A DNA stretch of 49,930 nucleotides from Lentisphaerota bacterium (lineage in GTDB: Bacteria; Verrucomicrobiota; Kiritimatiellia; PWTM01), in contig VGWF01000015.1 of the NCBI GenBank assembly GCA_016873715.1, positions 1-49,930 on the forward strand, in the 5' to 3' direction. Under the pieces are notes generated by a model that did not search any database, was not told where the DNA came from, and was given only the letters and a program-made list of their open reading frames with translations. Positions 28,416 to 29,615 of the stretch are shown here, one piece after another. The translations under genes were made by a program, and so were the position numbers. The stretch's first letter is position 1. Each line of letters opens with the position of its first letter.

Positions 28416-28471
28416 TGCGCCATCATGGCGCATTAGTGATCGTCCGGTACAGACTGCGCCATTATGGCCCT
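28416..28471 (+). promoter_or_regulatory. Paired palindromes, probable enhancer sites for the hsp20 operon
   Basis: TGCGCCATCATGGCGCA (28416-28432) is a perfect palindrome with 8-bp arms. TGCGCCATTATGGCCCT (28455-28471) is the same site with two changes in the right arm. Centres are 39 bp apart and lie about 116 and 77 bp upstream of the -24 element at 28540, the usual distance for activator sites of sigma-54 promoters. The activator itself is not in the window. Confidence 0.7.
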
Positions 28472-28538
28472 TGCTTTGGATTGGTCTGACACGACGGATC
28501 TGGCTCATTTCATTATTCTTACATCACATCCTTAACAC

Positions 28539-28554
28539 TGGCACGAGTGTTGCA
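28539..28554 (+). promoter_or_regulatory. Sigma-54 (-24/-12) promoter of the hsp20 operon
   Basis: TGGCACGAGTGTTGCA matches the sigma-54 consensus TGGCAC-N5-TTGCA exactly in both boxes, with 10 bp between the GG and GC dinucleotides. It predicts a start near 28567, about 20 nt upstream of the first hsp20 ATG, where AGGAGGA provides the ribosome site. Confidence 0.85.
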
Positions 28555-28587
28555 TAAGGGGACGGCAGAAATCAGGAGGACCGAGTC

Positions 28588-29013
28588 ATGATGCTGAGAA
28601 ATGCGTATCTGGATCCGATGGCCGAGATGGTGAAGTTCCAGCGGGACATGAACCGGCTGTTGAACGGCTACTGCCGTCCTGCGGACGTGTTCCCGCGGGT
28701 GAACGCTTGGGCTGACGACACGAAGGCGGAGGTTCGGGCCGAGGTGCCGGGCGTGGAATCGTCGGCGCTGCACCTGACGGTCACGGGCGACGTGCTGGTG
28801 ATCGAGGGCGATCGGAGCGCGATGGCCGATGCCGAGGGACTGCAGGTCCACCGGCGGGAGCGGACCGGCGGAGCCTTCCGGCGCTCCATCCGCCTGCCGT
28901 GGGAGATCGAGGAAGGCGAGGTGAAGGCGGCGCAGCGGAACGGCGTACTGACCGTGACACTGCCCCGGCGGGCCTCGACGAAGCCCCGGGCGATCCCCGT
29001 GGCGGCCGAGTAG
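28588..29013 (+). CDS. Small heat-shock protein Hsp20, first gene
   Basis: A 141-residue alpha-crystallin-domain chaperone that binds unfolding proteins without ATP. The domain spans residues 40-135: VRAEVPGVESSALHLTVTGD, LVIEGDRS, then a Phe-Arg-Arg-Ser-Ile-Arg-Leu-Pro strand (residues about 94-101) and NGVLTVTLP, followed by a C-terminal extension with RAIPV (an I-x-I-like anchor). GGAGG lies 8 nt before the ATG. Transcription is predicted from the sigma-54 promoter at 28539-28554. It is the first of two intact hsp20 genes and one broken one. Confidence 0.95.
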   Translation: MMLRNAYLDPMAEMVKFQRDMNRLLNGYCRPADVFPRVNAWADDTKAEVRAEVPGVESSALHLTVTGDVLVIEGDRSAMADAEGLQVHRRERTGGAFRRSIRLPWEIEEGEVKAAQRNGVLTVTLPRRASTKPRAIPVAAE

Positions 29014-29046
29014 ACGAAACGGACCCTTCGAACGGAGGACATGACC

Positions 29047-29439
29047 ATGACGACAGCAACCGAACTGAAGGCAACCGATCCGCGGCCGGTCGAGGCGACC
29101 CGGGACCGCCCCGTGCACATCCCCGACGCGGACATCTTCGAGGCCGACGGCGCCATCGTCGTGCTGGCGGACATGCCGGGCCTCGACGACAGGGCCGTGA
29201 CGGTGGAACTCGAGAACGACGTGTTGACGATCCGCGGCCGCGCCCCCGAGGCCGGCGTGGAACCCGCCCAGCCGATCGTCCGCGAGTTCGGCGAACGCGA
29301 CTACGAGCGATCGTTCGCCATCAACACGGAGATCGATCGCGAGCACATCCGGGCGCAGATGAGGAACGGCGTCCTGAAGGTGACCCTGCCCCTGGCGGCG
29401 GAGGTCAAGCCGCGGCAGATCGCGGTCGAGTCGCACTGA
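29047..29439 (+). CDS. Small heat-shock protein Hsp20, second gene
   Basis: A 130-residue alpha-crystallin protein of a type different from the first gene (weak similarity by eye): ALVLADMPGLDD-like start (VVLADMPGLDDRAVTVELEN), LTIRGRAP, YERSFAINTEIDREHIRAQM, NGVLKVTLPLA, and a short tail. The ATG at 29047 is preferred over the one at 29041 because it leaves the same 8-nt spacing from GGAGG that the first gene has. It lies 33 nt after the first gene; the pair resembles the two-member Hsp20 operons seen in several delta-proteobacteria and PVC bacteria. Confidence 0.94.
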   Translation: MTTATELKATDPRPVEATRDRPVHIPDADIFEADGAIVVLADMPGLDDRAVTVELENDVLTIRGRAPEAGVEPAQPIVREFGERDYERSFAINTEIDREHIRAQMRNGVLKVTLPLAAEVKPRQIAVESH

Positions 29440-29450
29440 ATCCCACGGCC

Positions 29451-29615
29451 GTCGAGCGGTCCTGCGGCCGGTTCGAACGGGCCGTCGCCCTGCCCCACGG
29501 CATCGGCCCGGGCCAGGTGAAGGCGCGGTTCAAGAACGGCGTACTCCAGGGGACGCTGCCGAAGACGCCGCAGCACCGGTCGTGCAGCCGCGCGATCGAG
29601 ATCACGGCCGGGTAG
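29451..29615 (+). pseudogene. Truncated third Hsp20
   Basis: From 29451 one frame reads VERSCGRFERAVALPHGIGP and continues to KARFKNGVLQGTLPKTP and a basic end (AIEITAG, stop 29613-29615). This is the C-terminal half of an alpha-crystallin domain (compare ERSYGRF...LP, NGVL.V.LPK). The N-terminal half is missing and the frame differs from that of the gene just upstream, whose stop lies 11 nt before. It is best read as a remnant of a third hsp20 gene after deletion. It could be translated only if an internal start were used. Confidence 0.8.

Follow-up and report, generated by a model that had tools for sequence, protein, structure and literature searches.

Background

Heat-shock control in bacteria is usually described in terms of sigma-32, of HrcA and its CIRCE element, or of related repressors. 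Sigma-54 enters this picture at ibpB of Escherichia coli, a small heat-shock gene reported with both sigma-32 and sigma-54 promoters. Among the regulators of sigma-54 promoters, NtrC serves nitrogen genes from enhancer sites such as that of glnA, TGCACCAACATGGTGCA, and HsfA of Myxococcus xanthus is likewise of the enhancer-binding type. The two-component system HsfA/HsfB activates lonD (Ueki and Inouye 2002, as cited in PMC9548883). More recently, a survey from 2025 predicted sigma-54 promoters on chaperone genes of Planctomycetota and Bacteroidota, the targets belonging to the hsp20, groEL, groES, grpE, dnaJ and dnaK families (PMC12316311). For R. baltica, heat induction of hsp20 has been described (PMC2754498).

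Results and discussion

The hsp20 locus and its genome

The stretch of DNA analysed (the window, 49,930 nucleotides) is contig 15 of a 5.1-Mb draft genome, which comprises 289 contigs and is 97.6% complete. By sequence comparison, the basis of the whole analysis, it was examined within a set of 58 genomes of the class Kiritimatiellia, the source genome included. Since the relatives are mostly metagenome-assembled, single absences constitute weak evidence; among those with named GTDB records, most are Kiritimatiellae, and some are labelled Lentisphaerae, Verrucomicrobia or other. A match to hsp20 was obtained in 46 of the 58 genomes, again counting the source genome. The following features were assigned around the operon:

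28416 to 28432, no strand assigned: UAS1, predicted activator site TGCGCCATCATGGCGCA, centred 115 bp ahead of the -24 box; 18.7 bits, the highest score of the window
28455 to 28471, no strand assigned: UAS2, predicted activator site TGCGCCATTATGGCCCT, centred 76 bp ahead of the -24 box; 17.8 bits, the second highest score of the window
28539 to 28554, plus strand: predicted sigma-54 promoter (-24/-12) TGGCACGAGTGTTGCA with GG-N10-GC spacing; box kept ahead of the first hsp20 in 30/30 loci of the class
28575 to 28580, plus strand: ribosome-binding site AGGAGG, assigned from sequence, about 7 bases ahead of the hsp20 start
28588 to 29013, plus strand: hsp20-1, small heat-shock protein of 141 aa (PF00011, 4e-19), in relatives likewise kept as first hsp20 of the cluster
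29041 to 29439, plus strand: hsp20-2, small heat-shock protein of 132 aa (PF00011, 3e-16), 27 bases past hsp20-1
29433 to 29615, plus strand: truncated third hsp20 of which the C-terminal half is left (PF00011, 2.6e-9, profile positions 49-102)

Both complete proteins belong to the Hsp20 family, with 68.9 bits for hsp20-1 and 59.9 bits for hsp20-2 at a PF00011 cut-off of 20.8. The third hsp20, right behind hsp20-2, is devoid of its N-terminal part, and many relatives possess a full third gene.

Sigma-54 box and absence of HrcA/CIRCE

A reading of this DNA from its sequence only had proposed a canonical -24/-12 box at 28539-28554. The box TGGCACGAGTGTTGCA does sit there and is of the TGGCAY-N5-TTGCW type with the spacing GG-N10-GC. 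In the whole 5.1-Mb genome the pattern TGGCACN5TTGCW occurs twice and the perfect palindrome once. Within the window alone, one box with up to one mismatch was observed at 0.32 expected by chance, and two palindromes with up to three mismatches at 0.29 expected, a number reached by 3 of 100 shuffles. Judged from the window alone, box and palindromes are thus modestly, few-fold, above chance. The comparison across the class is considerably more informative: a box agreeing in at least 10 of 11 positions was present upstream of the first hsp20 in 30/30 loci, compared to 1.3% of dinucleotide shuffles, the commonest form being TGGCATG-N5-TGCT.

The lack of rpoN, which the same reading had named as an argument against itself, does not apply, as the source genome carries a single copy (PF04552, 198.8 bits; ORF of 491 aa) with an intact RpoN box ARRTIAKYREEL. 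A scan of the region around the hsp20 operon with a sigma-70-type consensus returned no sigma-70-like promoter, and no Rfam match for an RNA thermometer was obtained around the operon. The exclusion of HrcA/CIRCE, also part of the earlier proposal, agrees with the genomes, since both hallmarks of this regulon were missing: hrcA was detected in 0/58 genomes, with 7 of 14 control genomes matched in the positive control (those that matched being genomes known to have HrcA), and no CIRCE element with up to three mismatches is contained in the window.

Paired upstream palindromes

UAS1 TGCGCCATCATGGCGCA is a perfect palindrome but for its central base, and UAS2 TGCGCCATTATGGCCCT, located 39 bp from UAS1, deviates from the pattern at two positions. 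A perfect palindrome and a two-mismatch copy had been described before, and both were recovered at 28416-28432 and 28455-28471. Their upstream location stands, but the distances of 116 and 77 bp given for them have to be corrected to 115 and 76 bp, measured from the centres.

A de novo motif search (expectation-maximisation from random starts, 200 bases upstream of the box in the 30 first-hsp20 regions) yielded the class-wide consensus TGtGnCATnATGnCaCA, usually in two copies, around positions -74 and -116 relative to the box; the best-scoring restarts converged on tGtG.CAt.aTG.CaCa. At a threshold of 7 bits, 68 palindromes were counted in the 30 regions compared to 4.4 in shuffles, with at least one in 30/30 regions and at least two in 29/30. 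The centres lay most often at -72 to -76 and at about -114 to -119 relative to the box, and the spacing of a pair was often 39-45 bp. Judged by this geometry, the pair would represent a typical enhancer arrangement, with the two copies about four helical turns apart.

When the matrix was rebuilt without the family of the source genome, UAS1 and UAS2 still ranked first and second in the 50-kb window, the next site scoring 12.3 bits. Box and palindromes were similarly placed in held-out loci from another collection (L102, L105, L106, L108, L110 and L113). Of the further held-out genomes, G025 and G037 possess both elements at comparable positions, and G014 and G048 showed the box with one or two sites. 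Proteobacterial hsp20 loci contained neither box nor palindrome, and three planctomycete loci (L117-L119) showed the box and no clear palindrome. One hsp20 locus with the same box and site (L114) stems from a record labelled Gemmatimonadetes, which would be either a mislabelled bin or a transfer.

It could be argued that the box is a chance promoter look-alike and that the operon is expressed from a conventional sigma-70 or heat-shock promoter. While the few-fold excess seen in the window by itself would leave room for this explanation, it is rendered very improbable by the elements conserved throughout the 30 regions and the held-out loci, and by the missing sigma-70-like site in the region. 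Altogether, the class-wide conservation strongly supports a sigma-54 promoter served by an enhancer that is specific to its activator, and it likewise backs the earlier prediction that hsp20 is driven through an enhancer-binding protein.

Extent of the chaperone regulon

For a wider search, a composite pattern of the box and one palindrome core was scanned over the 58 genomes, resulting in about 33 matches compared to 9 for a reversed control pattern. Matches were located before clpB in the source genome and in G008, G010, G017, G023, G038 and G056, before dnaK in G048, and before membrane-anchored hsp20 in G009, G028, G039 and G050, some of the latter being core-only with less than 8 bits for the full matrix. 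Membrane-anchored Hsp20 proteins with an N-terminal transmembrane segment were noted at L061 (10876-11604) and L188-L190, some of them behind the same promoter type. In G033 and G034 (L185, L200) the same box and sites precede a gene for a zinc peptidase (PF04298), and this metallopeptidase is a possible additional member of the regulon.

In the source genome, clpB (C23) is preceded by the box TGGCACCGTCAGTGCT and two sites at -103 and -74. The dnaK-groES-groEL locus (C34), in which groES and groEL follow dnaK on the same strand, shows the box TGGCACACCCTCTGCT and the site TGTGCCGGGATGGCACA at -125; at this promoter, one good site is accompanied by a weak second one (8.6 bits). Since sites were found before all three loci, hsp20, clpB and dnaK-groESL of the source genome all carry the architecture. 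The expectation that the binding site would mark a regulon was thus borne out, as the site leads to clpB and dnaK-groESL.

In clpB upstream regions across the class, the box together with a site scoring 12 bits or more was present in 15/45, the mean for shuffled sequences being 0.03, and the regions ahead of the C85 gene, taken as control, showed this combination in 0/30. As the palindrome occurs on clpB in only about one third of the genomes, membership in the regulon varies. In G002 and G006, clpB and hsp20 are oriented divergently, each with its own sigma-54 box, and the palindrome between them serves both. In family f9 and in G001, clpB has a sigma-54 box with altered or missing palindromes. 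Upstream of clpB in family f9 (L245-L248), TGGCA repeats replace the palindromes in most of the four genomes, which possibly reflects a changed activator specificity.

Proposed mechanism

Taken as a whole, it is very probable from the conservation of these elements that sigma-54 and an enhancer-binding protein on the paired palindromes drive the chaperone operons. The hsp20-hsp20 operon would be transcribed by sigma-54 RNA polymerase from the box at 28539-28554, with a predicted transcript start at about 28564-28567, some 12 bp past the -12 element. The two palindromes, each 17 bp long and situated about 75 and 115 bp ahead of the box, would be bound by dimers of an AAA+ enhancer-binding protein, TGCGCCATNATGGCGCA being the candidate target in the hsp20 upstream DNA. 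The bound activator would form a ring, loop to the polymerase, hydrolyse ATP and open the closed complex. Binding, looping and ATP-dependent opening are established for sigma-54 promoters generally, and we infer them for the hsp20 promoter by analogy. Upon a stress signal, the same activator would also turn on clpB and dnaK-groES-groEL in the source genome and, in other Kiritimatiellia, chaperone gene sets that overlap with these, and would take the role that is held elsewhere by HrcA/CIRCE or sigma-32. Heat is presumed to be the inducing signal because the gene products are chaperones.

The more specific proposal, that hsp20, clpB and dnaK-groESL are under the positive control of one orthologous activator, bound at paired TGTGNCATNATGNCACA sites, across the HrcA-less Kiritimatiellia, is given an even chance. 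If it is true, the heat-shock response has moved to sigma-54, and its induction is activator-driven and ATP-gated instead of relying on repressor release or sigma-factor exchange.

Candidate activators

The source genome contains three enhancer-binding proteins, C85, C76 and C111; two further weak PF00158 matches are Clp-family ATPases, C23 being clpB and C106 being classified by its sequence. The search for a matching activator gene, as proposed by the sequence-only reading, delivered these three candidates, each with either a narrow distribution or another plausible function. C111 is weakly favoured, its distribution speaking for it and its gene context pointing towards a nitrogen role. In some of the genome searches, scoring covered the best 16-28 candidates of each genome, and an activator not found may therefore have been missed.

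That the activator is C111 (C111:13920-15503, GAF-AAA+-HTH), a NifA-like protein scoring above the TIGR01817 cut-off, is plausible at slightly below an even chance. It is the sole one of the three that occurs in nearly all palindrome-bearing genomes, including G004, G015, G018, G042, G047 and G051, all six without a C85 match; moreover, G001, without a C111 match, shows hsp20 palindromes that are among the weakest and none on clpB. On the other hand, the neighbours of C111 comprise nadE in 13/20 loci, amtB in 5/20 and glutamine synthetase III in 4/20 (names from sequence), and G008 (68% complete) possesses palindromes and no C111 match. The amtB genes near C111 have sigma-54 boxes lacking the chaperone palindrome, which suggests a nitrogen role of C111 with another site. 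The exact NifA site TGT-N10-ACA was present in only 2/30 hsp20 upstream regions. If C111 is the activator, the chaperone regulon would be coupled to a small-molecule or metabolic signal via the GAF domain. By comparison, it is unlikely that the response regulator C85 (C85:17530-18906, REC-AAA+-HTH) acts here as HsfA does on lonD in Myxococcus. Although C85 occurs in about 46/58 genomes with 49-72% identity (source genome excluded) and its gene adjoins the hsp20 cluster convergently in G052, it was not found in G004, G018, G042 and G051, all with palindromes on hsp20 or clpB. In at least 11/30 loci its neighbour is a type IV pilin gene that possesses a separate sigma-54 box and lacks the chaperone palindrome, an arrangement suggestive of a PilR-like function. 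These pilin neighbours and absences disfavour C85 as the chaperone regulator.

Another protein may fill this position, be it C76 with unrelated replacements elsewhere, a class-wide kinase-regulator pair (group 2), or an activator lost in an assembly gap, and we regard this tentatively as a real possibility. The completeness of 97.6% over 289 contigs leaves room for such a loss. Most relatives possess group 2, which in 17/20 loci is immediately preceded by a sensor kinase gene and in G016 sits 3.5 kb from clpB; nevertheless, it was not found in G007 or in the source genome, both with some of the strongest palindromes, and for the latter it is rejected as the activator. C76 forms a separate lineage with one distant relative (G056). 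As the palindrome is class-wide, an orthologous activator is expected, which argues against C76; being nearly confined to the source genome, it was rejected as a conserved regulator. With regard to an HsfA-type system, both C85 and group 2 carry receiver domains, and their distributions do not fit that of the palindromes.

Apart from the chaperone genes, pilin genes with sigma-54 boxes were observed directly downstream of C85-type regulators at L069, L071, L072, L076, L079, L083, L086, L087, L090, L091 and L092. Judging by this arrangement, regulator and pilin genes probably constitute a PilR-like system of the class. Autoregulation of C85 was considered and rejected, no sign of it being found. 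Upstream of amtB (L259, L261 and L270), a common motif TACATTTTTGT lies 100-145 bp before the sigma-54 boxes and is possibly the site of another activator.

Comparison with known systems

Sigma-54 is already known to control single heat-shock genes. What appears to be new is the conservation of the enhancer, the class-wide extent of the chaperone regulon and the coincident absence of HrcA, as no description of them was found in searches of the open-access literature. Several main chaperone operons share one sigma-54 enhancer architecture in a class with hrcA in 0/58 genomes, and the palindrome provides a concrete predicted target sequence for a regulon of largely uncultured bacteria.

A resemblance in architecture exists to NtrC, which also uses paired 17-bp inverted repeats some 100 bp ahead of a sigma-54 box. 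The glnA site TGCACCAACATGGTGCA and UAS1 agree in 14/17 bases; the Kiritimatiellia consensus TGtGnCAT, however, is distinct from TGCACC. HsfA/HsfB acts on lonD, the single known heat-shock target in the account cited above, and belongs to a different phylum. The 2025 survey does not name the class in its main text, and no enhancer site for these genes was found in it (PMC12316311). The findings reported here lend independent support to the proposal of sigma-54 for proteostasis in PVC bacteria. With ibpB, the Kiritimatiellia locus shares a small heat-shock gene carrying a sigma-54 promoter. However, sigma-54 is secondary to sigma-32 at ibpB and concerns a single gene, whereas in Kiritimatiellia, where HrcA was not found, sigma-54 boxes and a conserved palindrome pair are present on several chaperone operons.
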